64,000 nucleotides of DNA, taken from positions 248,001 through 312,000 of the forward strand of contig NZ_JALJYF010000002.1 of NCBI RefSeq assembly GCF_024170465.1, read 5' to 3'. Below, in pieces: positions 18,552 through 39,725 of this stretch. This DNA is from Natronospira proteinivora. GTDB taxonomy: Bacteria > Pseudomonadota > Gammaproteobacteria > Natronospirales > Natronospiraceae. The translations under genes and the position numbers were made by a program. Numbering within the stretch: position 1 is the stretch's first letter; each line of letters opens with the position of its first letter. Below the pieces are notes generated by a model. The model ran no database searches. It had not been told where the DNA came from and worked only from the letters and a program-made list of their open reading frames with translations.

Positions 18552-18562
18552 TCTTCACCGGC

Positions 18563-22646: not shown

Positions 22647-23230
22647 GAATCGTCTTCCACCTCAAGCATCTCGTCATCGGGGCGGTCGCCCTGATGGTCG
22701 CTCAGGCGAATATCCAGGTGCCCCCCATCGGCCTCCTTTATATGAATGTGCTCTGGCCAGCGCCCCTGGACCACTTCGATGGCATCGATCTGTTCCGCCA
22801 GGGCTTCATCCCGGGGTTTGAGGCGAAAACGCATTCCGTCCTCGTCATCCGCCGCCAGCGGTTGAACATCAAAAAGTGCCGCGAGCTGTTCCTGATCACC
22901 GCTCATCAACGCCATGAGCAACTCATTCAGGGATACCACCCAGGGGGCATCCTCGGCACGAATCTCTTCTGCTTCGCCCTCGGGGTGGATCTCGATGATG
23001 CGATCCGGCAACAGGCGATAAACATGCTCGAAGGGGGACTCGGTTTCCCAGCGCAGTTCTTCGCCGGCCACCCAGTGGACCCGCCCCTCACTGCGAAAAG
23101 CCCGATCCAGTCCCGGCGTGGTGCGTTCCTGCTGGAAGCGCGCCTCAAAGGCGGCCGGCTCGGCTGCCAGGGGCGTGACCAGCCCCATCAGCAGGACAAA
23201 CAACACAAGCTTCAAACCGCGCCCCCTCAT
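22643..23230 (-). CDS. apeL: LolA-like outer-membrane carrier protein ApeL
   Basis: A 195-residue secreted protein. The ATG is placed inside the apeK stop (ATGA), where it opens a signal peptide (LKLVLFVLLMGLVTPLAAEP). A longer in-frame start lacks any signal. The mature part has the LolA/LolB pattern: FEARFQQERTTPGLDRAFRSEG, then EELRWETESPFEHVYRLLPD, and alternating strands up to an acidic C-terminus (DDEMLEVEDDS). LolA-like proteins shuttle lipidated cargo across the periplasm; in aryl polyene clusters the cargo is probably the pigment lipid. Sequence similarity is modest in this family, so the name rests on motif layout and the invariant operon position. Confidence 0.85.
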   Translation of the reverse strand: MRGRGLKLVLFVLLMGLVTPLAAEPAAFEARFQQERTTPGLDRAFRSEGRVHWVAGEELRWETESPFEHVYRLLPDRIIEIHPEGEAEEIRAEDAPWVVSLNELLMALMSGDQEQLAALFDVQPLAADDEDGMRFRLKPRDEALAEQIDAIEVVQGRWPEHIHIKEADGGHLDIRLSDHQGDRPDDEMLEVEDDS

Positions 23231-23661
23231 GAAGCCTGGTGCGCCAGCTGGGCGCGGATACGATCGGTCAGGGCCGGCGGGCAGACAAACTGCAGCTCCC
23301 CGCTCTCCACACAAACCGCACACTGGATGGTATGGGCCCGGCAGAGACGCTTGCCGGTTTCGATGTCATGCAATTCATAATCGATGCGCAGGCGGTTTTC
23401 CCATTCCATGATCCCGGCGGTAACCCGCACCTGCTGAGCGTATTCCAGCGGCGCGATGTATTTGACCCGGGTGTCCACGATGGGCCACATGAAGTTCGAG
23501 GCCCGCATCTGGGGATAGTCATAATCGATCTTGCGCAACAGAGCAGCCCGGCCGGCCTCGAAATAGCGAAAGTAATTGCCATGCCAAGCCACCCCCATGG
23601 GATCCAGATCCTGGAAGGGAATCTCTATATCAATGCTTTCGACGATCTCGGCCTTCTTCAT
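23227..23661 (-). CDS. apeK: Aryl polyene acyl thioesterase ApeK (4HBT hotdog)
   Basis: A 144-residue hotdog thioesterase. The signature DLDPMGVAWHGNYFRYFEAGR (residues 18-38) has the catalytic Asp at the start and the family His-Gly-Asn-Tyr, as in 4-hydroxybenzoyl-CoA thioesterases. In aryl polyene biosynthesis it could free the finished chain or edit stalled ACPs. It is translationally coupled on both sides, with four-base overlaps to the ammonia-lyase upstream and apeL downstream. There is no signal peptide, so it acts in the cytoplasm. Family certain; role inferred from characterised loci. Confidence 0.9.
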   Translation of the reverse strand: MKKAEIVESIDIEIPFQDLDPMGVAWHGNYFRYFEAGRAALLRKIDYDYPQMRASNFMWPIVDTRVKYIAPLEYAQQVRVTAGIMEWENRLRIDYELHDIETGKRLCRAHTIQCAVCVESGELQFVCPPALTDRIRAQLAHQAS

Positions 23662-25220: not shown

Positions 25221-26927
25221 CTACTCTTTCTCCACAGGGGATTCCGGCTCAACCACCCCGGCACGCCGCGCCGGGGTCTCGTCCTGCCAGAAGTCATAGA
25301 AGTTGTACCATTGATAGGGGTATTCGCACAGCAGCGATTCCAGGCGGCGGACATATTCATCCACCACCGAACGCAGCTTGGCTTCGCGCTCCCGCCGGGG
25401 CAAGCGCAAGCGTTCAGCAAAGCGCTCAAAATAAATCCGGGCATTGCCGTCGGGACGATCCATGTAGAAAAAGCCGTATACCGGACACTGCAGGGCATGG
25501 GCCAGCACCCAGGGACCAATGGGGAAATCTGTCTCATCCCCCAAAAAGGGCAGACGGACGCGGGGACTGTCGACCGCCACCGGTGCCCGGTCTCCCACGA
25601 TCACCACGAATTCCCCCTGATCGATCCGAGATTTCAGCATCAGGGCCGTATCGGCCCCGATCTCCTCCACCATGATCACCCGCGCACCATGCTCCCGGTT
25701 CAACGCTCGCATCACTCGATTGTATTTGCGGGCATTGGCGGTATAGATCAGGGCATTGATCTTCACCTCGGGATAGCGGGTAGCGAGGGCCCGGCCCACC
25801 TCCAGATTGCCGGCATGGGCCCCCACCAGCAGGGCCCCCTGCCCCCGGTCCAGCAGGGACTGGAATGCCTCCCAATTGGGCATTTCCAGCGCATCGGGAT
25901 CCCCACCACCGGACCAGGCTTCCACTCGCTTGATGTTGGCGCGGACAAACTGCCAGAAATGCCGGAAGGTGGTTCTCCAGCCGGGCCGGGGCTGGCTGGG
26001 GTCAAAGGCATGCAGGCGGCGAAAGTAATGCATGGAGGCCCGGCGGGCACGGCCATTGAACAGCAGAAAATAGAGGGCGGCGGGAAACAGCACCACCGCC
26101 ATACCCCGACGCCCCAGCAGGCGATAGGCCCAGACCGCCATGCGCATCCCCAACACGGTGCCCGGTTCCTCCACCCCGGCCCAGTGATCGGCCCGGCGCC
26201 CGGCCATCAACCAGCCGGGCCAACGAGCCAGCATCCCGAACACCAAGCGTACATGCATGGCCGAGATACGGACATTGTCCCGAAAGAGGCGAAAGGTGGA
26301 GCGGCTGCCGGTGTCATAGCGAACACCGGTTTCGATGAAACGTACCGCGGTGCCCCGCCAGAACAGACGCACCATGATCTCGGTATCGAAGTCCATGCGC
26401 GGCCCGACCCCTTCCTCATCCGCCACCGCCAGGCTGGCGGCCAGGGGGTAGATGCGGTAGCCGCACATGGAATCCCGGATCTGGAAACTCAGGGTTTCAA
26501 TCCAGACCCAGACATGGGTGATATAGCGGGCAAAGACCCGGCCGGCGGGCACCGAGGCATCGTAGCGAGGCCGGCCGGAGATCAGGGCTTGCGGTTCGGC
26601 TCGGGCCGCGTCCAGAAAGGCCGGCAGGTCCGCCAGATCATGCTGGCCATCGGCATCCACCTGCAGAACATGGCTGAAACCGTCGGCCCGGGCTTGGCGC
26701 ATGCCGCACAGCACGGCGATGCCCTTGCCCCGGTTAATGGCCTGACGAAGCAGGATCACATGGGGGTCGGCCTGGGCGATTTCCGCCAAGCGCCGAGCGG
26801 TGTCGGCATCATTGCCGTCATCCACCAGGTAACAGGGCAATCCCTGATCGCGCAACTGCGCCACCACCTCGGCCACCCGCTCGGGTTGACGATAGACCGG
26901 AACTACCGCACAAAAGGACAGGTTCAT
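25221..26927 (-). CDS. apeJ: Glycosyltransferase-acyltransferase fusion ApeJ
   Basis: A 568-residue two-domain protein. Residues 1 to about 240 form a family 2 glycosyltransferase: FCAVVPVYRQPERV, LVDDGNDADT, NRGKGIAVLCG and QVDADGQHD (the DxD-like metal site). After a linker, residues of about 270-560 form a lysophospholipid-acyltransferase/LpxL-like domain with GAHAGNLEVGRAL, VMVEEIGADTALML and a HFWQ/YF-rich core. Such fusions are diagnostic for aryl polyene loci and may glycosylate and acylate the pigment's lipid anchor. The start is the ATG overlapping the apeI stop (ATGA); an in-frame start 108 bases upstream gives a non-family extension. It is followed directly by the ammonia-lyase. 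Confidence 0.9.
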   Translation of the reverse strand: MNLSFCAVVPVYRQPERVAEVVAQLRDQGLPCYLVDDGNDADTARRLAEIAQADPHVILLRQAINRGKGIAVLCGMRQARADGFSHVLQVDADGQHDLADLPAFLDAARAEPQALISGRPRYDASVPAGRVFARYITHVWVWIETLSFQIRDSMCGYRIYPLAASLAVADEEGVGPRMDFDTEIMVRLFWRGTAVRFIETGVRYDTGSRSTFRLFRDNVRISAMHVRLVFGMLARWPGWLMAGRRADHWAGVEEPGTVLGMRMAVWAYRLLGRRGMAVVLFPAALYFLLFNGRARRASMHYFRRLHAFDPSQPRPGWRTTFRHFWQFVRANIKRVEAWSGGGDPDALEMPNWEAFQSLLDRGQGALLVGAHAGNLEVGRALATRYPEVKINALIYTANARKYNRVMRALNREHGARVIMVEEIGADTALMLKSRIDQGEFVVIVGDRAPVAVDSPRVRLPFLGDETDFPIGPWVLAHALQCPVYGFFYMDRPDGNARIYFERFAERLRLPRREREAKLRSVVDEYVRRLESLLCEYPYQWYNFYDFWQDETPARRAGVVEPESPVEKE

Positions 26928-27274
26928 TGGGATGCTCCGAAAAACAGTCGGCCTTCGGAACACAGGGGGCCATCCAGTCCATCCAGGGTCAGACGCCAGT
27001 CCACCTGGCCATCGCGGGCTTCCAGGTGCAGGCAAAGCTCACAATCCGGCTGGATTACCCGTTGGAATTTCACCGAGCGCAGGCCCTGGAAGCCTCCATC
27101 GGGACAGAGATCCCGCTCGGCCAGTTGGCGGGCCCATTCCACCTGAACCAGGCCGGGCAACACCGGGTGGCCGGGAAAATGGCCCCGAAACCAGGGCAGA
27201 TCGACGGGCACGGCCAGGCGGTATTCGGCCACCGGCCCCCTGACACGCTCGCTCAGTATGGGTGGCAGACTCAT
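26924..27274 (-). CDS. apeI: Aryl polyene dehydratase subunit ApeI (FabZ-like hotdog)
   Basis: A 116-residue hotdog protein with the FabZ active-site signature WFRGHFPGHPVLPGLVQ; His32 or His36 is the probable catalytic base. It is shorter than FabZ itself but normal for ApeI, which forms a hetero-complex with ApeP in the Xenorhabdus pathway and removes water from each 3-hydroxyacyl-ACP. The start shares one base with the apeH stop (TGATG), and its stop overlaps the apeJ start. Together these fix its reading frame and place it in the operon between ligase and transferase. Confidence 0.9.
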   Translation of the reverse strand: MSLPPILSERVRGPVAEYRLAVPVDLPWFRGHFPGHPVLPGLVQVEWARQLAERDLCPDGGFQGLRSVKFQRVIQPDCELCLHLEARDGQVDWRLTLDGLDGPLCSEGRLFFGASQ

Positions 27275-28653
27275 CAGGCCCCCTCCTGAAACAAGGCCAG
27301 CAGATCAGCCCGGCGCAGCTTGCCCATGGGATTGCGGGGCAAGGTTTCCAGGTAGCGAAAGCGTCGCGGCAGAGCAACCTCGGTGAAACGGGTGGCCAGT
27401 TGCGCCCGCAACTGCCGCTTGAATTGCCACTTGCCCAAGGCCTCCAGGGCTTGCTGACCGACCTCACTCAGGGCCAATACTGCTGCCGTGGTCTGCCGCT
27501 CGCCGTTCAGGCGCAGCACCGCGGCTTCCCGGACCCAGTCGCTGGCTTCCAGGGCAGTCTCGATTTCGGCCAGTGAGATACGGCGATCCTCGATCTTGAT
27601 CACCCCGTCACTACGCCCCAACAACTCGAATCCGCCTGCGGAATCCAGCCGCCGCCGAGCCCGGTCACCCGTATCCAGCCATTCATGACCAGTGGCCGGG
27701 GATCGGACCTGCATGGGCCCCGGCTCAGCGTCCGGGAATGCCAGCTCGACGCCGGCAAAGGTCTGCCAGTGTGCATGCTCGGGCCGTCCCTGATCACGGA
27801 AAGCAATGCCACCGGTCTCGGTACTGCCATAGACTTCCCATACCGCCAGGGGGTCCAGGGCCCGGTGCAGGGCCAGGGAGGTGGAAGCGGGTAGCGGCCC
27901 GGCAGAAGAAAACACGCCATCCAGCCGACCGGCGGAAGCCACCAGAGCGGTATAGCCCGGCCAGCGTTTGAGATGGGCTGGGCTGCTCACCAGGACACTG
28001 CGGGGGAAGCGATCGATGGCAGCGGCAATTCGGGGGGGCTCCAGCAGGGCCAGCTCCGGCACGGGCCGCCCGGCTACGAAGGGCCAGAGCAAGCGAAACA
28101 GCAAGCCATAGAGATGGAAATGGGGCACCGTGGCCACCACCGCACTCGCTTCAAGGAGATCGCCCCAGGCCTCCTGCAACACCAGCAGCTCGTCTTCCAG
28201 CTGGGCCAGGGTCTTGTCCACCCGCGTGGGCTCACCGGTGGAGCCGGAGGTAAACAACAGCAGGCGAGCCTTGCGGGAAAGCTCAATGGGCGTATTCACC
28301 GGGGCTCCCGCCGCCACCGCCACATCCCGGTCGTCCGCCAGCTCGGGGGCCCCACTGACCAGACCCCGCTGGTCATCCACCAGCTGTCGCACCGCAGCCA
28401 CGCCACTGTGAGGGGGGAGCACGGGGGTTGCACCGGCCGCCAGCACCCCCAGCACAGCGGCCAGGAACCGGGTGGCGTTGTCATCCACCACCAGCCATTG
28501 CTGGCGGGAGTCTTCGGACACGTTACGTCGGACCTGCTCGACCATGGACCGCAACAGACCCAGGGAATGGCCTTCGGCCTCCGGATGCCAGCTGATGATT
28601 CGCCCTGTATCGGATTGATTCAGGGCGGCGGTTAGCTGAGTGGCAATGGTCAT
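27274..28653 (-). CDS. apeH: Aryl acid-AMP ligase for polyene starter activation (ApeH)
   Basis: A 459-residue ANL-family ligase. The AMP-binding loop is LLLFTSGSTGEPTRVDKTL. The sugar-phosphate binding part is EVYGSTETGGIAFR, and the hinge and C-terminal motif is LDTGDRARRR ... LGRSDGVIKIEDRRISLAEIE. The last catalytic Lys region reads NPMGKLRRADLL. ApeH charges the aromatic starter (4-hydroxybenzoate or 4-coumarate type) onto the ACP. Here the neighbouring ammonia-lyase would favour a cinnamate-type acid. The start is the ATG overlapping the apeG stop (ATGA); a GTG four codons upstream is possible. Confidence 0.9.
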   Translation of the reverse strand: MTIATQLTAALNQSDTGRIISWHPEAEGHSLGLLRSMVEQVRRNVSEDSRQQWLVVDDNATRFLAAVLGVLAAGATPVLPPHSGVAAVRQLVDDQRGLVSGAPELADDRDVAVAAGAPVNTPIELSRKARLLLFTSGSTGEPTRVDKTLAQLEDELLVLQEAWGDLLEASAVVATVPHFHLYGLLFRLLWPFVAGRPVPELALLEPPRIAAAIDRFPRSVLVSSPAHLKRWPGYTALVASAGRLDGVFSSAGPLPASTSLALHRALDPLAVWEVYGSTETGGIAFRDQGRPEHAHWQTFAGVELAFPDAEPGPMQVRSPATGHEWLDTGDRARRRLDSAGGFELLGRSDGVIKIEDRRISLAEIETALEASDWVREAAVLRLNGERQTTAAVLALSEVGQQALEALGKWQFKRQLRAQLATRFTEVALPRRFRYLETLPRNPMGKLRRADLLALFQEGA

Positions 28654-29225
28654 GGCGCTGACCACCGGCGCCGCTGATGCTGACGAATACCGTACTCAAT
28701 GGCAAACAAGGTGGCCACCAGCAAATAACTGATCAGGCCGTTATAAAGCCCCCAAAGCCAGTCCGGTGCCCACAGGGCCGTGGCCAGGGCGACCAGGCTG
28801 TTGGCAAACAGAAACAGGCTCCAGACCCGGGTAACCTGGCGGGTGTAGGGGATGGCCTCCGGTGGAAGTTTCCCCTCCCGCAAACGGGCAATCCGTTCCA
28901 CCAGGGGACGTTCGCTGAACAGGGAGGAAAAAAACAGGCTGAACACGGCCAGATTGGCCAGGACCGGATAAAAACGAATCCCCAGCATGAAATCCAGTTC
29001 CAGCCAAAGCGGTAGGGCCAGCAGGATCCCCAGTATCACGACCAGACTCCCTTGCAGGATCAGTGTCTGCCGATGAAACCATCGGGCGGACAGCAAGCGA
29101 AGGGTCATCAGACCCAGCAGGACCATCCAGAGCGTACCCACTTCCCAGAAGCGGATTCCGGCAATCACTGCCAGGGGATACACCGCCAGGCCAATGCCAG
29201 TGATCGCCGGAAGGGGGTTCTTCAT
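28650..29225 (-). CDS. apeG: COG4648 membrane protein ApeG
   Basis: A 191-residue membrane protein with five or six hydrophobic segments and short loops. It ends in a basic tail (RQHQRRRWS). Between the helices runs a conserved stretch, FFSSLFSERPLVERIARL followed by YTRQVTRVWSLFLFANSL, typical of the COG4648 family that accompanies ACP and ligase genes in aryl polyene clusters. No enzyme motif is visible. The start is an ATG with GGAGAAG at the end of the preceding ACP gene; an in-frame start 42 bases upstream lies inside the ACP gene. Its molecular job is unknown. Confidence 0.82.
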   Translation of the reverse strand: MKNPLPAITGIGLAVYPLAVIAGIRFWEVGTLWMVLLGLMTLRLLSARWFHRQTLILQGSLVVILGILLALPLWLELDFMLGIRFYPVLANLAVFSLFFSSLFSERPLVERIARLREGKLPPEAIPYTRQVTRVWSLFLFANSLVALATALWAPDWLWGLYNGLISYLLVATLFAIEYGIRQHQRRRWSAP

Positions 29226-29229
29226 GGCA

Positions 29230-29475
29230 TCAGGCCAGCAGCTTCTCCATGGCGCGAATGACATCATCCACGGTACGCACGTCCTTGAATTGCTCCGGCT
29301 TGATCTTCTGCCCGGTGATTTCCTGCAGCTTGATTACCAGATCAACCGCATCAATGCTGTCCAGCTCCAGGTCCTCATAGAGATGGGCCTCGGGCTGGAT
29401 GTCGCTCTCATCAATCTCAAAATGGTCGATGAGAATGCGCTTGATTTCATCAAAATCCACGGTTGCGCTCGCCAT
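29230..29475 (-). CDS. apeF: Aryl polyene acyl carrier protein ApeF
   Basis: An 81-residue acidic ACP. The phosphopantetheine serine is Ser40 in LELDSIDAVDL. Helix I (FDEIKRILIDHFEID) and helix IV (VRTVDDVIRAMEKLL) are of normal length. In characterised aryl polyene systems two ACPs divide starter loading and chain carrying. This one is the shorter and more FabF-ACP-like. It lies three bases downstream of apeE and just upstream of apeG. Confidence 0.93.
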   Translation of the reverse strand: MASATVDFDEIKRILIDHFEIDESDIQPEAHLYEDLELDSIDAVDLVIKLQEITGQKIKPEQFKDVRTVDDVIRAMEKLLA

Positions 29476-29478
29476 GAT

Positions 29479-29748
29479 TCACCCCGCTCCATTGGCCCGT
29501 GCCGATTCAATGAATCGGGCCAGGTTCTCGATACTGTAAAAATGTTCCCGAGTGTCTTCGGAGGTGGCATCAAGACGTACATTGTATTTCTTCTGCACCG
29601 CCACACCGATCTCCAGTGCGTCAATGGAATCCAGTCCCAGGCCATCGCCGAACAGGGGCGCCTGGGGATCGATATCCTCCACGGCAATATCTTCCAGCTC
29701 CAGGGCCTCGATCAGCAATTCACGCAACTCTGTCTTCAATCCAGACAT
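29479..29748 (-). CDS. apeE: Aryl polyene acyl carrier protein ApeE
   Basis: An 89-residue ACP with Ser41 in LGLDSIDALEIG as the phosphopantetheine site. Relative to ApeF it has a longer helix IV region containing 'EHFYSIENLARFIESA', so the two carriers are not interchangeable copies. The ATG is preceded by AAAGAG; an upstream TTG in frame is less likely. It is the first gene after a 224-base gap that holds a perfect 18-base palindrome and a possible promoter, so transcription of apeE-R may be separately controlled. Confidence 0.92.
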   Translation of the reverse strand: MSGLKTELRELLIEALELEDIAVEDIDPQAPLFGDGLGLDSIDALEIGVAVQKKYNVRLDATSEDTREHFYSIENLARFIESARANGAG

Positions 29749-29878
29749 GCTCTTTACCCTCAATCCACGCGGTATGACTCAGCAGTCCTTCCAGGACCCA
29801 TGCGCAAGTCACCCGGCGGAGATTCTGTTAAATCGGCAAGACCTGTGCGGCTCCCCGGCGATCTCGCGTAGCAAGTCC

Positions 29879-29905
29879 AATATACGCGCCCCTCGCCGGT
29901 CTCCG
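29879..29905 (-). promoter_or_regulatory. Possible promoter for apeE onward
   Basis: On the minus strand TATATT (29879-29884) matches the -10 consensus at five of six positions. The hexamer 17 bases upstream (TTCGGA) is poor, as expected of an activator-dependent promoter. The apeE start lies about 130 bases downstream. Confidence 0.3.
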
Positions 29906-29906
29906 A

Positions 29907-29924
29907 ACCCCTCATATGAGGGGT
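29907..29924. promoter_or_regulatory. Perfect 18-base palindrome in the apeD-apeE gap, candidate operator
   Basis: ACCCCTCATATGAGGGGT is identical on both strands. Its centre is about 43 bases upstream of the start point predicted from the TATATT box, the usual position of a class II activator site. The ACCCC...GGGGT half-sites resemble binding sites of LuxR/NarL-type response regulators. No cognate regulator is identified in the window. Confidence 0.5.
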
Positions 29925-29972
29925 ATGCGGTCCCCAAAAGCCACCCAGCTCCCTCGGACAAGGCGCGGAATT

Positions 29973-30752
29973 CTACAAGAGCCCAAGCTCACGTTCAAAA
30001 AAGCGCTTCAGTCCCTGGGTCAGTCGTCTTACAGCCAGGCTCTCTTCCAGTCCTTCCACCTCGGCGAAGGCGCTGAGGGGGCGCGCCTCCAGGACCCGAA
30101 TCTTCAGTGTCCACACCCGATCCGGCACCCGATACCAAGGAGTCCCCTTATTCAGGGTGGGCGGCGTGCATTCCATGACCACCGGCATAATCGGTGCGCT
30201 GCTGGCCAGAGCAATTCGGGCCGCACCCCGGCGAAAGCGCAGGGGCTCGCCGGGCACGGTACGGGTCCCTTCTGGAAAAACGATAAAGGGTTCGTTTCGG
30301 GTGTTGAGGCGCTCAGCAGCGGTAGCCACCACCGATTCGGCCTCGGCATTGCTTACATAGCCCGCCGCACTCACCATCAATGCCAGCACCGGATTGCGCC
30401 AGGCAGACTGTTTGACCACGCAATCAGCCTCGGGTAACCGGGAGATCAACACTACCACGTCAATCAGGGTGGGATGCTTGACCGGCAACACCAGACAGCC
30501 CCCCGATTGGGCCAGCAAATGCTCGTTTTCGATCTCGAAACGCCCCAGACCCAATTTCTCGATCTGCCATGGCACGGTGGCAAAGCCCCAGCGAATCAGA
30601 CCGCGGACCCGGCGGCGGCGGGCTTTGGCGCTTCCCGGGATCAGCAGCACCAGGGGAAGCACCGCCAGGCTCATAACCACACCACCAAGACCAAAGCTGA
30701 GAAAGACCCAGCCTGTACCCAGGCTGCGGTAGATACGTTCAAGCGGCCACAT
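29973..30752 (-). CDS. apeD: Lysophospholipid acyltransferase family protein ApeD
   Basis: A 259-residue PlsC-like acyltransferase. The HX4D catalytic motif is His93-PTLI-Asp98, and the substrate motif FPEGTRTVPG follows about 90 residues later. One or two hydrophobic segments at residues 12-40 anchor it to the inner membrane. In aryl polyene systems ApeD probably builds the lipid to which the pigment is attached. The start chosen is the ATG with GGAG seven bases upstream, 14 bases inside the apeC end; a longer start lacks a good ribosome site. It is followed by a 224-base gap before apeE. Confidence 0.88.
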   Translation of the reverse strand: MWPLERIYRSLGTGWVFLSFGLGGVVMSLAVLPLVLLIPGSAKARRRRVRGLIRWGFATVPWQIEKLGLGRFEIENEHLLAQSGGCLVLPVKHPTLIDVVVLISRLPEADCVVKQSAWRNPVLALMVSAAGYVSNAEAESVVATAAERLNTRNEPFIVFPEGTRTVPGEPLRFRRGAARIALASSAPIMPVVMECTPPTLNKGTPWYRVPDRVWTLKIRVLEARPLSAFAEVEGLEESLAVRRLTQGLKRFFERELGLL

Positions 30753-31503
30753 GAACCGGCTCCAGCTGCCATGCCCGTCGCTCGCTACGCCAATCACCCC
30801 TGCCCTGTGGCCGAACCAGCCCCGTCAGCATGGATTGCAGAACGGCCGTTTCACCGGCGGGGTCACCTGGTGGCACGGCACGCCAGGCAAGACGAAACAG
30901 GGGGCCGGCCTGGGTGTCTTCCTTGGGCGCAACGCGCAAGGCCAGACAGGCGACGGGGGCGTCCTCGGGCAGATAATGGCGATAAAAGGCCGGTATCGAC
31001 TGCTCGGCCCAGACCATCAGGCAGTCCCGCTGGGAAACCGCTGCCTGCACGGCAGTTTCCAGCAAGCCCGCAGGCAAGGTATCCAGCCCCGCCGCCACTG
31101 CCGTAGCCGGCTCCCGATTTTTGCGGGCAATGGAATGCAGCCCCAGAATGGCGTTGTGGACGGAGAGAGAAAAGTCCCGGGGTGACAGCGGTTCGCCTTC
31201 GGCCAATGACTGTAACAGTGAATAAGATCGGGCCAATTCGCCATGCCGCGAAGCGAACACCATGGGCGCATGATCATCGGCATCATGCAGGGTGTCTTCC
31301 ATCACTCGAAACACCATTCGCGCCATGGGGCCCAGACGACGACGCTGCATGGCAGGCAGAAAACTGACGTCGGCACGCTCCTCGCCAGCGGGTGGCCCAC
31401 CCCGCTCGATCCAGGCCAGCCAGTCCTTATGGCTGCTCATGCCGGGCGCCCAGGCTTGCCAGTCACGCAATCGAAAATCGATCTCGGTCGAATTATTGTT
31501 CAT
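30739..31503 (-). CDS. apeC: Ketosynthase-like chain-length partner ApeC
   Basis: A 254-residue protein of the 'beta-ketoacyl synthase, N-terminal' family found first in aryl polyene operons. It is far shorter than a full ketosynthase. Where the nucleophilic Cys would sit it has DFSLSVHNAILGLHSIA, so it cannot form the acyl-enzyme. This agrees with ApeC being a chain-length-factor-like partner of ApeO. The start MNNNSTEIDF is chosen because the upstream extension lacks the family N-terminus. It is the first gene of the operon and faces the ABC transporter operon across an 89-base divergent gap. Its last 14 bases overlap apeD. Confidence 0.85.
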   Translation of the reverse strand: MNNNSTEIDFRLRDWQAWAPGMSSHKDWLAWIERGGPPAGEERADVSFLPAMQRRRLGPMARMVFRVMEDTLHDADDHAPMVFASRHGELARSYSLLQSLAEGEPLSPRDFSLSVHNAILGLHSIARKNREPATAVAAGLDTLPAGLLETAVQAAVSQRDCLMVWAEQSIPAFYRHYLPEDAPVACLALRVAPKEDTQAGPLFRLAWRAVPPGDPAGETAVLQSMLTGLVRPQGRGDWRSERRAWQLEPVHVAA

Positions 31504-31592
31504 GGTCCGCTTGCCAATCCCCATCCAAGATGGCGATAGTGTAAAGCCTGTTTCCCCTTTCCGCTGAATGGCGACCCTAAAAAGACCGTGCA

Positions 31593-32561
31593 ATGAGCAA
31601 TCCGGCCCCAGGCAAACCCACTCCCCTGCTGCAGTTATCCGGGGTTCAAAAACAATGGCCGGGACGGCCGCATCCCGCCCTGAACGGGCTCGACCTCACT
31701 GTCGCCGAGGGCCGCATCCTGGGGCTACTTGGCCCCAATGGGGCCGGCAAGACGACCTTGTTATCCGTGCTCATGGGCCTGACACCCGCAGATGCCGGTC
31801 GCTTTGAGCTGGATGGCCAGCCCCTGGACCGGCGACGCACCGCCTTGCGGCGTATCGCGGGCCTGGTGCCTCAGCATATTGCCCTCTACCCCAGTCTCAG
31901 CGGCCAACAGAATCTGGACTTCTTCGCCGGCCTGCTCTGGCGTCACCCCAGGGAACGGCAGCGGGCCGTGGACCGTTGTGCGGCCATTGCGGATCTGGGA
32001 GAAGCCCTGAATTACCGGGTGGAACAATACAGTGGCGGGCAGAAGCGACGGCTGAACCTGGCAGTGGGACTGCTGGGGGAACCCCGACTGCTTTTGCTGG
32101 ATGAACCCACCGTGGGCATCGATCCCCAGTCCCGTCATTTCATACTGGAATCCATTCGCCGGCTTTGCCGGGACGAGGGCATGACCGTGATCCACACCAC
32201 CCACTACATGGAAGAAGTGGAACAGCTCTGTGACGATGTGGCCATCATGGATGAGGGGCGCGTGCTGCTCAATGACAGCCTGGACCAGGCACTCCGTCAA
32301 GCCCGCGCCCTGGGGCGACTTCAGCTGCGCTTGGAAGGGTCGGCACCCAATTCACTGCTCGCGGCCTTGCGAAAAGAAGGCATCGTGGTGGAAGCAGTAC
32401 GCGACCATGAACTGTCCCTGAGCCTGGCCGAATGCAACCTCAGTCTGTCGGCCATCACCGAATTGATCGAAGCACAGCAACAAGTCATCAGCACCCTGCG
32501 CTTTGGGGCCAGCCTGGAAACCCTTTTCCTGTCACTCACCGGCCGGGCCCTGAGGGAATAA
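31593..32561 (+). CDS. ABC transporter ATP-binding protein of the resorcinol block
   Basis: A 322-residue ABC ATPase. Walker A is GPNGAGKTT near residue 50, the signature is YSGGQKRRLNLA, Walker B is LLLLDEPTVGID, and the H-loop His lies in VIHTTHYMEEVE. About 80 C-terminal residues after the core resemble the extension of drug- and lipid-exporting ABC-2 systems (DrrA/CcmA type). It is followed one base later by its permease. Location between the aryl polyene and resorcinol genes suggests export of the pigment or its precursor, in addition to the MMPL route, but this is not shown by sequence. Confidence 0.93.
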   Translation: MSNPAPGKPTPLLQLSGVQKQWPGRPHPALNGLDLTVAEGRILGLLGPNGAGKTTLLSVLMGLTPADAGRFELDGQPLDRRRTALRRIAGLVPQHIALYPSLSGQQNLDFFAGLLWRHPRERQRAVDRCAAIADLGEALNYRVEQYSGGQKRRLNLAVGLLGEPRLLLLDEPTVGIDPQSRHFILESIRRLCRDEGMTVIHTTHYMEEVEQLCDDVAIMDEGRVLLNDSLDQALRQARALGRLQLRLEGSAPNSLLAALRKEGIVVEAVRDHELSLSLAECNLSLSAITELIEAQQQVISTLRFGASLETLFLSLTGRALRE

Positions 32562-32562
32562 G

Positions 32563-33720
32563 ATGCATCGACTGATCTCATTGATCTGGAAGGAATGGCA
32601 GGTGCTGGCCCGGGACCCCCATGGCCTGGCGGTACTGTTTCTCATGCCGGCGGTTTTCATCCTGGTCATGTCGGTGGCCCTGCAGGATGTCTTTGCGCCG
32701 GATGGCGAGGAAATGGGACAAGTCGCTGTGGCCGACCCCATCCCCGACGCCACCGCGGAAAGCTTTCTCGATCACCTGTCAAAACGAGTCCTGCTGGTGA
32801 CTGTGGACGCCAATGATCCCCTGGCCCGGGATGAGGTACGCCTACAGCTGGCAGCGGATTTTGGAGAACGACTGACGGCCCTGGTTGAAGATCCCGGTGA
32901 AAATCCCGCTCCCGCTTTGGACCGCTTGGCGGACCCCGGCGTGGATGGCCGTTCTCTGCAAGTCATCGATAGTGCCATCCAGATGGCATTGGGCGAAGCC
33001 CTGTCGGAGATGGAAGGTGACGGGGAAGTGGCCGACCTGCTGACCCAACTGGATCGCCACGCCATTCGCGGTCTGCGGCCTGGCCAGGCAGATCCCACCA
33101 CCACCCTGAGCTCGGTGCAGCAATCGGTTCCGGCCTGGCTGGTCTTTGGCATGTTTTTCGTGGTAATCCCCCTGTCCACGGTACTGATCGGGGAACGCCA
33201 GGAAGGCACCCTGGACCGGCTACGCCTCATGGGGGTGGGTCCGAGCATTCTCCTTTTGGCCAAACTGCCGGCCTACTTTCTGGTCAACCAGGTCCAGTTG
33301 CTGGCCATGCTGGCGATTGGCTTCTGGATTGTTCCCCTGGCGGGCGCCGAGGCCCTTCAACCGCCGATTCATCTCACCGCCCTGATACTGGTGGCCTCCA
33401 TTACCAGTCTGGCCGCCATCACCTTTGCCCTGCTGGTGGGCGTTATTGCAAAAACCCATATGCAGGCCACCACGGCCGGCGGTGTCTTCAATATCCTCTT
33501 TGCCGCCGCCGGGGGCATCATGGTGCCGCGATTTGTCATGGCGGATACCATGCAGTCCGTGGCGTGGCTCTCTCCCATGGGCTGGGCACTGGATGGTTTT
33601 CTGGCCGCCTTTCTGCGCGAGGACGCCCTGTCCGTAATATGGCTGCCGCTGCTGGGGCTTTCCCTGTTTGCCCTGCTCTGCTTCCTGTTGGCGGTGGGCA
33701 TCATCGCCCGCCGCCACTAG
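32563..33720 (+). CDS. ABC-2 type permease
   Basis: A 385-residue permease. One N-terminal helix (residues 20-40) is followed by a soluble periplasmic domain of about 150 residues, then five or six helices beginning at VPAWLVFGMFFVVIPLSTVL. The segment IGERQEGTLDRLRLMGV is the conserved E-[GR]-T-L-[ED] cytoplasmic loop of ABC-2 exporters, and the AMLAIG..VPLAGA and TFALLVGVIAKTHMQATTAGG segments are typical. It pairs with the ATPase one base upstream. The periplasmic domain is of the YhhJ/DrrB-like half-transporter kind, so two copies probably form the channel. Confidence 0.9.
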   Translation: MHRLISLIWKEWQVLARDPHGLAVLFLMPAVFILVMSVALQDVFAPDGEEMGQVAVADPIPDATAESFLDHLSKRVLLVTVDANDPLARDEVRLQLAADFGERLTALVEDPGENPAPALDRLADPGVDGRSLQVIDSAIQMALGEALSEMEGDGEVADLLTQLDRHAIRGLRPGQADPTTTLSSVQQSVPAWLVFGMFFVVIPLSTVLIGERQEGTLDRLRLMGVGPSILLLAKLPAYFLVNQVQLLAMLAIGFWIVPLAGAEALQPPIHLTALILVASITSLAAITFALLVGVIAKTHMQATTAGGVFNILFAAAGGIMVPRFVMADTMQSVAWLSPMGWALDGFLAAFLREDALSVIWLPLLGLSLFALLCFLLAVGIIARRH

Positions 33721-33804
33721 CAAGCCCAAGCCCCGTTTGCTGTCGGCTTTTTGATAAACTGCCCATTGACCACTGGCAGCAATGTCCACACGGCGGAGAA
33801 GGGA

Positions 33805-34074
33805 ATGTCTGGCTCTCAGGATGATCAATTCAAGCAATCGCTCAAGGAACTGATCCTGGAGGAGACCGGCAAGGACGAACTGAGCCCGGAACAGATCGCC
33901 GATGACGAGGCCCTGTTCGGGCCGGACACTTCCCTGGAACTGGATTCCCTGGATGGCCTCCAGGTATCGGTGGCACTGAAACAGCAGTTTGGTGTCGAGC
34001 TTAATGACAGCAAGCGTCTGCGCCGCGTGATGGCGAATATCAACACCCTGGCCGACTTCCTGCGCCCCGACTGA
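33805..34074 (+). CDS. Acyl carrier protein of the resorcinol block
   Basis: An 89-residue acidic ACP. Ser48 in LELDSLDGLQV is the phosphopantetheine site. The start has GGAGAAGG at ideal spacing; an in-frame ATG-like codon 54 bases upstream gives an unrelated leader. The stop shares one base with the ketosynthase ATG (TGATG). It is a third carrier, different from ApeE and ApeF, and supports an independent fatty chain made by this block. Confidence 0.93.
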   Translation: MSGSQDDQFKQSLKELILEETGKDELSPEQIADDEALFGPDTSLELDSLDGLQVSVALKQQFGVELNDSKRLRRVMANINTLADFLRPD

Positions 34075-35225
34075 TGCCCAAGCCAATCCACCCCGTGCAC
34101 ATCGTGGGCCATGCCATGGCCTGCCCCCACAACGACCCGGCTGCCGCCTTCCAGGCCGGTGCTCCGCCCACCTGGACCCCGCTGCCGGTTCCCGGCTATC
34201 CGGGTGTGGAACGACCTTACGGCTTCCTGCACCAGCGGGAAGCCCCCGAACAGGCCCTGGACCGGCTACTGGATGAAGCCTTGAGCCGGGCTGGCTTGAG
34301 TGCGGCGGAACGAGTCCAGGCCCCGGTTCTCATGGGCACCTCTTCGCTGAATATCGGCGAGAATGAAAAACGCATCATCGAGCAGCTGCATCAGAGCGAT
34401 TCATCCCCCGCCCTGGAAGATGCCCGCTGGGGTTTCATGCTGGATCAGTATTGCCAGCGCCACGGCCTGGAAGGTCCCCAGACGACCTTCAACACCGCCT
34501 GCAGCTCCAGCGCCAACGCCCTGCTTTACGCACAACGCATCCTGAGTCTGGATCTGGCACCCGCGGTGGTGGTCATCGGCTTTGAAGCCTATAACGGCAT
34601 CAGCTTTGGCGGCTTTCATGGACTAATGCTGCTGTCCCCGCAAGACTACCGTCCTTTCGATCCTTCTCGGCAGGGCATCATCCTGGGGGAGGGGGTGGCT
34701 GTGGCCGTGCTACGCCGGGACGACAAGGGTGCCGTAGCACGGTTGGAAGGCGGCGACACCGCCATCGACTTCACCGGCATCACGGTGGCTTCGGAAGACA
34801 GCCTGGCCCGTGTCATGCGCTCGGCCCTCGATAAAACCGGCAATACCCCGGTGCAGGCGATCAAGGCCCATGGCACCGGCACGGCCGGCAATGATCAGGC
34901 GGAAGCCAACGCCATCCACCAGGTATTCGGTGAGCAGGCACCCCCCTACTTTTCCCTCAAGGGCGGTCTGGGACACAGTCTGGGGGCCTGCGGACTGGTG
35001 GAACTGCTGAGCTTGAGCGTCTGCCGCGACAGGGGGTTTCTGCCCGCCTCTCTGGGCTACGGCGACCATCCCCCGCAGACCCAGGAAACCGCAGAGGAAG
35101 AGGAGATCGAGTCACTGCCCCTGCTGCCCCTGGATACACAGCAAGCCTGGCCGGAACCCGGACGGCTGCTGCTGAACTATTTTGGTTTCGGCGGCAATAA
35201 CACCAGCCTGGTGGTGACCCTGTGA
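34074..35225 (+). CDS. Beta-ketoacyl-ACP synthase of the resorcinol block
   Basis: A 383-residue ketosynthase with complete residues: Cys143 in NTACSSSANALL, His in KAHGTGTAGND, and His in GGLGHSLGACGLVE. The C-terminal NYFGFGGNNTSLVV replaces the usual NSFGFGG. It is divergent from ApeO and ApeR and is locked between an ACP gene and a cysteine-less partner. Together they look like a KS/chain-length-factor pair for one of the two acyl chains that DarA and DarB would join. The next gene starts at a GTG overlapping the stop by four bases. Confidence 0.9.
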   Translation: MPKPIHPVHIVGHAMACPHNDPAAAFQAGAPPTWTPLPVPGYPGVERPYGFLHQREAPEQALDRLLDEALSRAGLSAAERVQAPVLMGTSSLNIGENEKRIIEQLHQSDSSPALEDARWGFMLDQYCQRHGLEGPQTTFNTACSSSANALLYAQRILSLDLAPAVVVIGFEAYNGISFGGFHGLMLLSPQDYRPFDPSRQGIILGEGVAVAVLRRDDKGAVARLEGGDTAIDFTGITVASEDSLARVMRSALDKTGNTPVQAIKAHGTGTAGNDQAEANAIHQVFGEQAPPYFSLKGGLGHSLGACGLVELLSLSVCRDRGFLPASLGYGDHPPQTQETAEEEEIESLPLLPLDTQQAWPEPGRLLLNYFGFGGNNTSLVVTL

Positions 35226-36109
35226 GTGCGCCGGCCATCCAGCAATTCCGGGTCCTGGCAGCCGGCCAGTTCAGTCGCCCACTGGACTCGCCCGAGGGAC
35301 AGGACCTGCGAGACCTGTTCAAGACCGAAGGCCTGCCCCCCATTCGACGGGCCAACCGTTTCATTAGCCTGGCGGTACTCGGGGCCCATCGTTGTCGGCG
35401 GCATTACTCAGGCAAGCTCCCCGATGACTGTGGTACCTATCTGGCCACCGCCCACGGCAGCTTCACTGACACCGTCCGGCTATTGGAAGACCAGGTACAG
35501 CGCCATTTGCCCATCACGCCCTTTCGTTTCGTGAATGTATTGAGCAATATTGCCGGCTTTCATGTAGCCGCCCATCTGGGAACGTCCGGGGAAAACCTGG
35601 CCATTGCTCGCTTGAAGGGGGCGTTTGATGCGGCACTGGAAACGGCAGCCATGGACCTGGCCTTGGGACAGACTGACTGCGCCATGGTGGGTGGCGTAGA
35701 TGAAGGCGACGACGACCTGGCATTGCACCGCAGCCGCACCAAGACGCCGGAAGGCCGCATACCCGGAGAAGGCAGTGGCTGGCTTCTGCTCACTGCGGAT
35801 TTGCATCAGGAAGGGGCCCTTCTGCAACATGGCGGCGATTATGGTGATCCATCTGTGCTGGCCGATGCCTTGCACGATGCCCGGCCGGACTGCTTGGCAG
35901 TAGGCACCTCGGCCGATCGCCACCCGGCTTCCTTGCAGGCCGCCTTCCCGAATTATGCGGTGTGGGACTACCACCAGACCCAGGGCTGGATACTGAGCAA
36001 CCCGGCCATGGCCTTTGCCGAGCATATCTGTAACGGCGCCGGACGACTGGCCCATATCGATCAGACCGGCCCCCAGGGTCAATGGCGGCTATGGCTGCTG
36101 GATCGTTAA
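35222..36109 (+). CDS. Cysteine-less ketosynthase-like partner (chain-length factor type)
   Basis: A 295-residue member of the thiolase superfamily that is shorter than a full KS. The region matching the nucleophile reads FVNVLSNIAGFHVAAHLGTSGENLAIA, with no Cys at the active site, as in ApeC and chain-length factors. Later KS-like elements (GQTDCAMVGGVDEGD, RIPGEGSGWLLL) are still recognisable. The GTG start overlaps the stop of the active KS by four bases, so a 1:1 heterodimer is likely. The gene ends 18 bases from the converging BtrH-like gene. It is homologous in design to apeC, giving two KS/KS-like pairs in one locus. Confidence 0.82.
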   Translation: MSAPAIQQFRVLAAGQFSRPLDSPEGQDLRDLFKTEGLPPIRRANRFISLAVLGAHRCRRHYSGKLPDDCGTYLATAHGSFTDTVRLLEDQVQRHLPITPFRFVNVLSNIAGFHVAAHLGTSGENLAIARLKGAFDAALETAAMDLALGQTDCAMVGGVDEGDDDLALHRSRTKTPEGRIPGEGSGWLLLTADLHQEGALLQHGGDYGDPSVLADALHDARPDCLAVGTSADRHPASLQAAFPNYAVWDYHQTQGWILSNPAMAFAEHICNGAGRLAHIDQTGPQGQWRLWLLDR

Positions 36110-36127: not shown

Positions 36128-37165
36128 TCAGAGCTGGCGGGCAAGATGTTTCAGTGCCCGCCCTTCCTGTTCGGCGCAGCAACGTAGCTGCTCGGGCAAA
36201 CCCCTGAGCTGACCCGGGTCACCACTTTTCACGTAACGCGCGCCTTCCAGGGCAAAGTCGCGCCACTGTTCACCCGCCTCGGCCATCAAGGCCGCACTGT
36301 CTTCCAGGGCCGGAGACTGCATCCAGTCAGCCGCTTCCTGGAGGAAAGCCGCATAGAGGAAACGGAAGCCACCACCACCGGTACCGATTTCTTCCTGCAT
36401 GCGAATGATCTGGGCCACATAGAGCTGCTTTTCGCGATCCTCCAGGGATTTTCCCGACAGCTTTTCCAGACGCTTGGCCAGATGACGGATCCCCCGCAAG
36501 CCGATCCAGGGTACCGGCGAGTAACGCATCATGTTGCAGCTGCTGCGAATGGCACGGCGGGCGATTCCCGACCAGTCCAAATGCTTGGGGAAATCCTCGG
36601 GATAGTAGATCAGACCCTTGGGCGCAAAGGGCCCCCGGGCAAAACGAGCCTTCATCAGATCCCGCCAGGGCGCCCGCACCGGGTGATCAAAAACCGGGTC
36701 ACTGATCAGATAATCCTCCCCTTCCCGCCCATAGACGATCAGATTGTGGGCGTTGAAATGAAAGCGCATGTCCCGGGGGAAATAGGGCAGCCAGTACACC
36801 GAGGTCTGCAAGCCCACCGGGCGACCCTCGGCCAGATGGTCATCCAGGGCCTGCATGCCCGCCACCGGGTCCCGGAAGCGTTCCCGGTGCATGGTCAATC
36901 CCAGTCGCTTCTCCAGACCTCGAACCACCCGGCCCGGTGGCATGCGATAAGAAGTGAGGGGCTGTTGATTAACTCGAACCATGGGCAAATGGGCGAAGGT
37001 AAAGGCCGCCGAGAGCCCAAAGGCTGCCGGCTCACTAAGAGGCAGGCCCGCATGCCCCAGCAGACGGGCCATGACGCCGGTCTCACAATGAGCGGCATGT
37101 TGATGCTCAAAGGTGGGCACGCCGATCAACCCGGGGGAATAAGTGTCTGTGGCCACGGCTGCCAT
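36128..37165 (-). CDS. BtrH/DUF4872-like cysteine acyltransferase candidate
   Basis: A 345-residue protein with the BtrH N-terminal layout: a probable nucleophile Cys27 in HQHAAHCETGVMA, His140 in FHFNAHNLIVYG, and Asp156 in YLISDPVFD. The C-terminal half is helical, in line with DUF4872. The named relative BtrH moves an acyl group from an ACP to the amine of an aminoglycoside in butirosin synthesis. There is no signal peptide. Here the gene sits in one minus-strand set with darA and darB, so acyl transfer from ACP to the resorcinol or another acceptor is attractive. Sequence identity to BtrH cannot be judged by eye. ATG follows CAGGAG. Confidence 0.8.
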   Translation of the reverse strand: MAAVATDTYSPGLIGVPTFEHQHAAHCETGVMARLLGHAGLPLSEPAAFGLSAAFTFAHLPMVRVNQQPLTSYRMPPGRVVRGLEKRLGLTMHRERFRDPVAGMQALDDHLAEGRPVGLQTSVYWLPYFPRDMRFHFNAHNLIVYGREGEDYLISDPVFDHPVRAPWRDLMKARFARGPFAPKGLIYYPEDFPKHLDWSGIARRAIRSSCNMMRYSPVPWIGLRGIRHLAKRLEKLSGKSLEDREKQLYVAQIIRMQEEIGTGGGGFRFLYAAFLQEAADWMQSPALEDSAALMAEAGEQWRDFALEGARYVKSGDPGQLRGLPEQLRCCAEQEGRALKHLARQL

Positions 37166-37166
37166 C

Positions 37167-37616
37167 TCAGGGCTCCTGTTTCAACTGTTCGGTATCCATG
37201 TCCAGCACCTCGGCATAACGTCGTAACAGCCGGGGTGACAAACGGGAAAAAGGCCCGGGGCGCAAATGCCGGCGCACGCGCCAGCTCATGATGCCCATGG
37301 CCTGGGCGAGACTACCCGGATCCAGGCGGCGCTCGTACATGTAAAAGGCCAGAGGCGATGCCCGCCCGGCCTGGATCGCCGCCCGGGCTTCCCGGGCCAG
37401 TCGCTGGAATTCCGCGACCGCCGCCGTGGTCACGACCTCCTCCACCTTCCAGCCCTCGGACGGGATCATCCGATAATGGCCGGAGGCATCCCGGCGATAG
37501 ACAGCCTTGTGCTCACCCTCCAGCACCCGGTTCTCTTCCGATGCCAGCTCGTCCTCCGACCCCCCGACATCCGGGGGCGATACAGAGGCCTTGTTGTTGG
37601 GGACATCACTGACCAT
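37167..37616 (-). CDS. Uncharacterised protein with possible HTH segment
   Basis: A 149-residue protein of no recognised family. The N-terminal 35 residues are polar and disordered-looking. The C-terminal half contains a helix-turn-helix-like pattern, LDPGSLAQAMGIMSWRVRRH followed by SRLSPRLLRRYAEVLDM, reminiscent of XRE-type DNA-binding domains. A local regulator of the locus is therefore possible. The central part (EVVTTAAVAEFQRLAREARAA) is helical. The ATG lies just inside the end of darB, and the BtrH-like gene starts one base after its stop, so it belongs to the darA-darB transcript. Function unknown. Confidence 0.72.
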   Translation of the reverse strand: MVSDVPNNKASVSPPDVGGSEDELASEENRVLEGEHKAVYRRDASGHYRMIPSEGWKVEEVVTTAAVAEFQRLAREARAAIQAGRASPLAFYMYERRLDPGSLAQAMGIMSWRVRRHLRPGPFSRLSPRLLRRYAEVLDMDTEQLKQEP

Positions 37617-37618
37617 GA

Positions 37619-38779
37619 TCAAGCCACCGTCAACTGCATCCAGCAGCTGGTAAAGCGCCCGCTTTCGGGCACAAAACAGAGAATCTTCTGACCGGACTCA
37701 AGCTGACCACTGGCGGCGAGCTCTTCCAACATGATGAAGATGGAAGCCGCCCCCGTATTGCCGCGCTCCGCCAGATTGGTAAACCAGCGATCCTGGGGAA
37801 TCTCCGTCCCCACCCGGGCCATACCCTCAGTGAGAGGGCCCCGAAAGTACTCCGAGGACATATGGGGCAGGAACCAGTCCACGCTGGAAACATCCAGGCC
37901 CCGACGAGCACAGACCCGGGGCAGGGTCTCATCCACGGTCTTTTTCACCACTTCATCATTGAGCAGACGAACATCCTGCTTGACCGCCATTACCGAATTA
38001 CGGCCCAGCGCTTCAGGCCCTCCAAACTCCCGCCAGCCCTTTAGATAACCAGCCTTATTCTTCTCGGCACCGGCATACATGCAAACCGGCATATCACCGG
38101 CATGGGACGTGGAATCGATCCAGTCAATCCAAAGATTCACCGGTCCCGGACCGGGACGGTCTGATAGCAGCATGGCGCCTGCCCCGTCCGAGAGCATCCA
38201 GCGCAAAAACTCCTTTTCAAAGGCCAGCTCCGGACGTTGGGTCACCGCTTCCGCCCTCTCTTGGGCCAGCGCCTCTGCCTCCGCCTGAAAATGGGCCGAC
38301 CGCATCATCAATGAAGACGTCTCGGACCCGGTGGCCACGGCTTGCCGGGCTTCACCCACCGCCACCGCCAGCCAGGCCTGTTTCAAGGCCAGGATGCCGG
38401 CGCTACAGATGCCGCTGGTGGACACGGTTTCGCAGGGCCCCGCCCCCAACTCACCGTGGACCATGACGGCATGGGAGGGCATCAGCTGGTCCGCCATGCT
38501 GGTACCACAGGCCAGAAGGTCCATGCCCTCGGGATCAAACACCTTGCCATCCAGACGCCGAATAGCCTCGGCTGTCAGCTGGGCATTGTTCCAGCGGGGC
38601 TCACCGTTTTCCGAATCCAGCACATAGTGACGACGGCGAATACCGTTCTGGCGCAGAATCACCCGCCGGGCCCGGGAGGGCCGATCACCCACCTGGCCCA
38701 GAACCTTTTCCATGGCGTCATTCGTCACCGCTTCACCGGGCATGAAGCGGCTCAAACTGGTAATGCAGACCTTATTCAC
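37619..38779 (-). CDS. darB: KAS III-like resorcinol-forming ketosynthase DarB
   Basis: A 386-residue FabH-type ketosynthase. The catalytic set is Cys125 in TSGICSAGILALK, His in WFLPHMSSEY, and Asn in ERGNTGAAS. It has the DarB family's 'GIRRRHYVLD' N-terminus. DarB condenses two acyl chains to the precursor of a 2,5-dialkylresorcinol, and aromatisation occurs later. It overlaps the end of darA by eight bases. The downstream small HTH-like gene starts just beyond its stop. Named with good confidence because of the darA neighbour. Confidence 0.9.
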   Translation of the reverse strand: MNKVCITSLSRFMPGEAVTNDAMEKVLGQVGDRPSRARRVILRQNGIRRRHYVLDSENGEPRWNNAQLTAEAIRRLDGKVFDPEGMDLLACGTSMADQLMPSHAVMVHGELGAGPCETVSTSGICSAGILALKQAWLAVAVGEARQAVATGSETSSLMMRSAHFQAEAEALAQERAEAVTQRPELAFEKEFLRWMLSDGAGAMLLSDRPGPGPVNLWIDWIDSTSHAGDMPVCMYAGAEKNKAGYLKGWREFGGPEALGRNSVMAVKQDVRLLNDEVVKKTVDETLPRVCARRGLDVSSVDWFLPHMSSEYFRGPLTEGMARVGTEIPQDRWFTNLAERGNTGAASIFIMLEELAASGQLESGQKILCFVPESGRFTSCWMQLTVA

Positions 38780-39725
38780 GACAGAACTCTTCCATTCTCT
38801 CCCGGCCAGCCCCGGAAGGCTGTTCCAGACGTTGTTGTTTGTCTTTCAGGCGGCGGGCCAGCAGCGGCCGGGCCAGGGCCTGGACCAGCAGACTCATCGG
38901 CACCACGGTCACGATCATCAGCACCAAAAAGATCATGTAGAGATAGAGCACCGGATAGCGTCGACGCTGCCCGGGGCGACCTACGGCCCGAATCAGCTTC
39001 CCCCATAACTTGAAGCTACGATGGCCAATGGCCTCACTCATGATGAAACGACGGTCCACCCTGGCAGCCTCCAGGCCGGTCAACATGGCCTTGCCCTGCC
39101 GTTCCTCGTCTCTCGACAGCGCATCCAGCAGGGCATAGCCAAAACGCCGGGTGCTCCATATCTGGGATTCATGCAGGCCAGCGGGCGGCAAGCGCCCATT
39201 TGGTGACCCGCGCCGACCCGTCAGCATCCAGCGGGGCGTGGTAATAAAGGTGGCCAGAGGCGGCCCCGGGTCCACCAGGGCCACGTGGTCACAATGCCGA
39301 GCCCCGGCCTCCGCCAGCAGGGACTTCATCTTTTCCTGGGCGGTCAACCACATATTGCGGCAGGCCGTCACCGTGACCACCGGGGTATTGTGCAGGATTC
39401 GTCGGCCCTGTTGGGAACGCAGGAAACCGGTAAACGGCAAACTGGGTGACAAAAACCAGACCTGATAGACCATAATCACAAGGTCAAACTGCTCATCATC
39501 CAGCAGCAGGGGGTCCATCTCCGGGGGCAGCAAATGCACCGATTCGGGAAAGACATCCAGAAAGCGGGTCACCGTCCAGGGGAAGGGATACGCGACCTTG
39601 GGGCGCAGGCGGCCATGGACCACGTCCACCTCGCTGCTGGCTTCCAGAGGTTCAATCAGGGATTGCGCCACCTGATCGGTTTGCCCACTCTGTGACCAGT
39701 AAACCACCAAGACCCGTTTGCCCAT
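38772..39725 (-). CDS. darA: Dialkylresorcinol condensing enzyme DarA
   Basis: A 317-residue protein. The N-terminal domain has a flavodoxin-like start, VLVVYWSQSGQTDQVAQSL. A segment with HLLPPEMDPLLL and VYQVWFLSPSLPFTGFL follows. A C-terminal membrane helix (YLYMIFLVLMIVTVVPMSLLV) lies before a basic tail. These are features of the DarA family found beside DarB in dialkylresorcinol and flexirubin clusters. It is probably bound to the inner membrane through the C-terminal helix. The gene is first on its strand after a promoter-like TATAAT and diverges from the MipA gene. The family name is reliable; the chemistry of DarA is less settled. Confidence 0.88.
   Translation of the reverse strand: MGKRVLVVYWSQSGQTDQVAQSLIEPLEASSEVDVVHGRLRPKVAYPFPWTVTRFLDVFPESVHLLPPEMDPLLLDDEQFDLVIMVYQVWFLSPSLPFTGFLRSQQGRRILHNTPVVTVTACRNMWLTAQEKMKSLLAEAGARHCDHVALVDPGPPLATFITTPRWMLTGRRGSPNGRLPPAGLHESQIWSTRRFGYALLDALSRDEERQGKAMLTGLEAARVDRRFIMSEAIGHRSFKLWGKLIRAVGRPGQRRRYPVLYLYMIFLVLMIVTVVPMSLLVQALARPLLARRLKDKQQRLEQPSGAGRERMEEFCRE

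Follow-up and report, generated by a model that had tools for sequence, protein, structure and literature searches.

DarH, a BtrH-related protein encoded beside darA and darB in Natronospira proteinivora, as a candidate for the polyene-resorcinol joining step of flexirubin/arcuflavin-type pigments

Background

Flexirubin and arcuflavin are esters of a polyene and a dialkylresorcinol (DAR). Heterologous expression of darA and darB yields DAR, and a ligase-like protein, FlxW, has been suggested as the joining enzyme for the flexirubin of Chitinophaga (PMC3992019). In Azoarcus sp. BH72, the arcuflavin cluster contains a gene, darE (azo0290), placed between darD and darF and listed as a "BtrH-like peptidase" with no assigned role; the product was assigned by mass spectrometry as a polyene-DAR ester in a study that also describes insertion mutants in the polyene clusters, and the Discussion of that study predicts the ester and names no joining enzyme (PMC3949708). 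In E. coli, ApeD and ApeJ have been proposed to anchor the polyene to lipid (PMC8253772). We found no paper in the literature searched that shows experimentally which enzyme forms the polyene-DAR ester.

Three described enzymes are of direct relevance to the gene analysed here. BtrH of butirosin biosynthesis carries out an ACP-dependent acyl transfer onto an aminoglycoside (PMC10318531). CcbD of celesticetin biosynthesis takes an acyl group from a carrier protein onto its cysteine and hands it on to an amine in a ping-pong condensation with a Cys-His-Glu triad (PMC12945683). CtaG of closthioamide biosynthesis has a proposed role in transfer between two carrier proteins, taking 4-hydroxybenzoyl from the first to a substrate bound on the second (PMC6772006). 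Our literature search returned no experimental paper on DarH, no functional test of its NCBIfam family (NF053550) and no structure paper for CtaG.

Results

The window, a 64,000-nucleotide stretch of the N. proteinivora genome (NZ_JALJYF010000002.1, positions 248,001 to 312,000), exhibits a minus-strand ORF of 345 amino acids with the exact bounds 36128-37165, which we refer to as darH (darE in the Azoarcus naming); reading of the same interval on the plus strand is interrupted by a stop. This ORF is the final gene of a closely packed, co-directional darA-darB-darD-darH run. The darB gene (37619-38779, minus strand) encodes a StlD/DarB-family ketosynthase for dialkylresorcinol formation (NF005293, 538 bits against a cut-off of 450), and its 8-bp overlap is with the ORF of darA (38772-39725, minus strand), the gene for the dialkylresorcinol condensing/aromatising protein. 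DarA has no match in Pfam or NCBIfam, and we identify it by its position and by its homologues, which adjoin darB in 16 other genomes. The preliminary description of this locus had placed darH in the same direction as darA and darB, one base away from its neighbour. All these genes are indeed on the minus strand, in almost gapless order, and the single base lies between the TGA of darD (37169-37167) and the ATG of darH (37165-37163), so that the neighbour in question is darD and not darB. A GGAG motif is located about 7 nt upstream of the darH ATG. The darD gene itself (37167-37616, minus strand, 149 aa counted from the ATG at 37616), directly upstream of darH, belongs to the NCBIfam DarG family. 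The DarD protein combines a small beta part at the N-terminus with an XRE/Cro-like helix-turn-helix at the C-terminus, and NGO0477 (E-value = 4e-3) and the HicB3 antitoxin (E-value = 4e-2), both weak, are among its longest fold matches.

A complete aryl-polyene gene set (16145-31593, minus strand) adjoins the dar run. It comprises genes for a KS, a KR, an ApeP-like DH, a DUF3261 protein, an MMPL exporter, LolA, an ApeK-like thioesterase (23227-23661), an aromatic ammonia-lyase, a GT2/LpxL-like (ApeJ-like) protein (25221-27035, minus strand), an ApeI-like DH, an AMP ligase, two ACPs (ApeE-like, 29230-29475; ApeF-like, 29479-29763; both minus strand), an ApeD-like LPLAT (29973-30797, minus strand) and a PF13723 ketosynthase. 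The AMP ligase, the only one of the set, is closest to 4-coumarate-CoA ligase and is for this reason more likely a starter enzyme. The ApeJ-like and ApeD-like genes are retained alongside the dar genes, and their presence suggests that the polyene might go to lipid as well as to resorcinol. The window thus combines a polyene set with darA and darB, as expected of a flexirubin/arcuflavin-type APE-DAR cluster.

On the opposite strand, a dar-linked operon (31593-36109, plus strand) converges on darH. It starts with an ABC transporter ATPase (31593-32561) and an ABC-2 permease (32563-33720), followed by a PP-binding acyl carrier protein that we call darC (33751-34074), darJ (34074-35225), a ketosynthase, and darK (35222-36109), which has a ketosynthase-like N-terminal domain without the catalytic cysteine. 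Together with their own ACP, darJ and darK resemble a ketosynthase/chain-length-factor pair conserved alongside darH. We considered darJ as a dead ketosynthase that might form the ester and dropped this idea, as its Cys-His-His residues are intact. With the ApeE-like and ApeF-like proteins, darC brings to three the ACPs near darH that are candidates for the donor carrier. The Azoarcus arcuflavin cluster is similarly arranged: its darE adjoins the conserved hypothetical gene darD, then darB and darA, with ABC genes, an ACP, darJ and darK nearby. The Azoarcus cluster has a chorismatase, whereas the polyene set of the window has an aromatic ammonia-lyase.

The DarH protein exhibits two consecutive Pfam domains, BtrH_N (residues 26-157, E-value = 5.7e-46) and DUF4872 (residues 169-341, E-value = 2.2e-51), which together span residues 26-341. 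It matches the NCBIfam model NF053550 (DarH_acyl) with 449 bits (E-value = 8.3e-135) over profile positions 2-324 of 325. This model is an equivalog, "BtrH-related acyltransferase DarH", with a curated cut-off of 300 bits, and we saw no difference between it and the window protein. DarH is therefore a member of an already named family and not a new gene, and the BtrH-like identity first given to it stands. The same holds for the proposed catalytic residues: Cys27, His140 and Asp156 are present as described, and all three are invariant in 43 of 43 aligned sequences, relatives at 44-58% identity. They are also kept in two distant homologues at 23-25% identity. This invariance is far beyond chance. 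DarH conserves the residues of the papain-like Cys-His-Asp/Glu triad of the BtrH/CcbD/CtaG-type carrier-protein-dependent condensing enzymes. The two distant BtrH_N/DUF4872 proteins (L054, 10089-11105; L055, 9303-10331) are encoded outside dar clusters, the former near ABC transporter genes.

A structure prediction, which the preliminary description had proposed as a check, gave a confident AlphaFold2 model (pLDDT 91.9, pTM 0.89). A PDB sequence search with the DarH protein or the DarH profile returned no meaningful match, and the relation to known structures is visible by fold comparison alone. Foldseek against the PDB aligned the whole DarH chain with AziU3, CcbD and CtaG (E-values from 2e-7 to 3e-11, TM about 0.6-0.7), and the scores fall steeply below these three; the full-length fold of the BtrH/CcbD/CtaG-type enzymes is thus predicted for DarH. 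In the model, Cys27 opens the first helix, His140 opens a strand, and Asp156 comes after the hairpin partner of that strand. Such a placement of Cys, His and Asp is expected in papain-like enzymes. From the fold, the secondary structure and the residue spacing, we infer that the three residues may be arranged as a catalytic triad. DarH resembles CcbD in its whole-chain fold and in a catalytic cysteine near the N-terminus, and the CcbD donor is carried by a carrier protein; CcbD differs in its Cys-His-Glu triad, its amine acceptor and an identity of about 15%. CtaG shares with DarH the whole-chain fold, the Cys/His/Asp residues (variants C11A, H128A and D144N are listed in the CtaG PDB titles) and a His-to-Asp spacing of 16, although its identity to DarH is about 11% and its product is an amide. 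BtrH shares the BtrH_N domain and its acyl transfer is ACP-dependent, but it acylates an aminoglycoside, whereas a phenol is the proposed acceptor of DarH.

Relatives of DarH are encoded in at least 565 stretches, and we examined the gene content around darH in the best 80 of these loci across proteobacteria. None of the best 80 carries a Bacteroidota label. The most constant partner is darD, present in 77 loci, on the same strand as darH in 77/77 and adjacent to it in 76/77. The ABC ATPase is found in 69 and the permease in 68 of the 80, the ACP in 67, darB in 66, darA in 64, darJ in 62 and darK in 60. For the 14 loci with no darB nearby, DarB is encoded elsewhere in the genome in eight and undetected in six. 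The six genomes are all metagenome assemblies; two of them (G379, G382) have a darA-like match, and in the other four (G372, G376, G380, G381), which do encode DarH, neither DarA nor DarB was detected, reflecting either assembly incompleteness or another acceptor. Three Deltaproteobacteria metagenome assemblies (L082, L148, L149) have darD-darH beside polyene-type type II ketosynthases, an ACP and an LPLAT, with a 4HBT thioesterase also near in L082 and L149; neither DarA nor DarB was found in the L148 and L149 genomes. DarH can thus be linked to either of the two halves. The L149 locus also exhibits two radical-SAM genes near darD-darH, one with a B12-binding domain.

Co-occurrence was assessed in an even sample of 370 genomes across the class. 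DarH was counted above the NF053550 cut-off and APE-type ketosynthases, our proxy for APE clusters, by PF13723; DarB was counted by NF005293, since no genome reached the cut-off of 550 of the NCBIfam DarB model NF053539. DarH is present in 17/370 genomes and DarB in 18/370, and all 17 DarH genomes have DarB (Fisher p = 2e-28). PF13723 is present in 86/370 genomes, including 17/17 of those with DarH (p = 5e-12), while none of the 68 genomes of this sample with PF13723 but without DarB has DarH. The genomes of the class are not phylogenetically independent, and p stays below 1e-10 after removal of same-genus repeats. With a stricter ApeI model (PF22818), 12 of the 17 DarH genomes pass (p = 5e-10), and we rejected it as the sole APE marker as too insensitive. 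In the other family sampled, that of G145 (199 genomes), DarB was counted by NF053539 with an E-value bound; DarB is present in 19 genomes, of which 18 have DarH and 19 have PF13723. This family is probably Pseudomonadaceae, because the G145 DarH shares 76% identity with the Pseudomonas anguilliseptica protein.

DarH is absent from the two DarB genomes in which the dar genes stand alone. G177, from a family of three genomes, has an isolated darA-darB pair flanked by unrelated genes. G517 (7.0 Mb) has ACP-darB-darA beside two AraC/DJ-1-type regulators, an arrangement that corresponds to the cluster with which Pseudomonas aurantiaca makes a free dialkylresorcinol. No darD was found within the 20 kb read around darA-darB in either genome, and the polyene ketosynthase of each lies elsewhere, away from the pair. 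The presence of darA-darB without DarH in these genomes indicates that the resorcinol can be made without DarH. As a control, Bacteroides ihuae has a strong DarB-family match and PF13723, and neither DarH nor any BtrH_N protein; joining in Bacteroidota may accordingly use another enzyme, unless this species makes no hybrid. DarH is thus found almost only in bacteria with genes for both pigment halves.

Discussion

The analysis favours a role of DarH as a papain-fold, carrier-protein-dependent acyltransferase that probably links the polyene and resorcinol parts of flexirubin/arcuflavin-type pigments. With His140 and Asp156 activating it, Cys27 would take over the finished aryl-polyene acyl chain from an ApeE/F-type or dar-linked ACP to form an acyl-enzyme thioester; a phenolic hydroxyl of the 2,5-dialkylresorcinol made by DarA/DarB would then attack this thioester and yield the aryl ester. 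The passage of the acyl group from ACP to Cys27 to acceptor is modelled on CcbD and CtaG, and the chemistry would be of the ping-pong type. Judged by the genomes in which darH occurs, the donor is most likely the polyene and the acceptor most likely the dialkylresorcinol phenol. The characterised relatives of DarH form amides, whereas an aryl ester is proposed here. The preliminary description had named the gene a candidate for linking polyene and resorcinol. Co-occurrence, the genomes with darA-darB only, synteny and the full-length CcbD/CtaG fold all strengthen this candidacy, with the polyene donor and the resorcinol hydroxyl acceptor still resting on inference.

Nearly every DarB genome found also has PF13723, so co-occurrence by itself does not tell polyene-DAR joining apart from a different step in the dar pathway. 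DarH might be an ACP-dependent acyltransferase of the pathway that uses a different donor or acceptor; it could, for example, acylate the second DAR phenol, load a precursor chain, or attach the polyene to an amine or a lipid. The dar-linked ACP, darJ and darK that accompany darH in most of the best 80 loci would suit such a role, as would the four metagenome assemblies with DarH in which DarA and DarB went undetected and the amine acceptors of CcbD and BtrH. We nevertheless consider this unlikely: darA-darB make the ring without DarH, both in heterologous expression (PMC3992019) and, as their gene content suggests, in G177 and G517; no amine-bearing partner pathway adjoins darH in the window; and the APE-type ketosynthase is found in every DarH genome of the class sample.

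It is less likely still that the ester is formed by a FlxW-like ligase, an ApeD-like LPLAT or an ApeJ-like GT/acyltransferase, with DarH serving as an editing thioesterase or carrier hydrolase. A ligase, FlxW, has been put forward for the join in Chitinophaga (PMC3992019), homologues of both proposed E. coli anchors are encoded in the window, and B. ihuae combines DarB and PF13723 without BtrH_N. However, ApeD and ApeJ belong to APE clusters without DAR (PMC8253772), and the sole AMP ligase of the window polyene set is closest to starter ligases. A separate thioesterase, the ApeK-like one, is already encoded in the window, and the closest folds for which a function has been described belong to transferases. 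We rejected a papain-type peptidase role, in which DarH would act as a C39-like peptidase for the neighbouring ABC transporter, as highly improbable: the frequent ABC genes near darH, a weak fold similarity (Foldseek E-value = 2e-4) to PCAT1, a transporter that contains a peptidase, and the "BtrH-like peptidase" label (PMC3949708) are outweighed by whole-chain matches to condensing enzymes that include the C-terminal domain with E-values several orders better, and by DarH being a separate protein with a DUF4872 C-terminus instead of a fusion to an ABC exporter.

The role of DarH as joining enzyme can be put in a broader form, to which we give slightly less than an even chance: that DarH forms the aryl ester of these pigments in Proteobacteria from an ACP-bound polyene, by BtrH/CcbD/CtaG chemistry widened from amines to a phenol, and that Bacteroidota form this bond with a different enzyme.

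The family of DarH is already named; what is new here is the evidence for its role, which makes the function directly testable. Through the strict co-occurrence and the two genomes with darA-darB and no DarH, a gene once labelled "peptidase" becomes a specific, testable candidate, with relatives widespread in Proteobacteria. If the proposed role is true, a structural family known for amide products would gain O-ester formation on a phenol, and darH would be a marker gene for hybrid pigment clusters.
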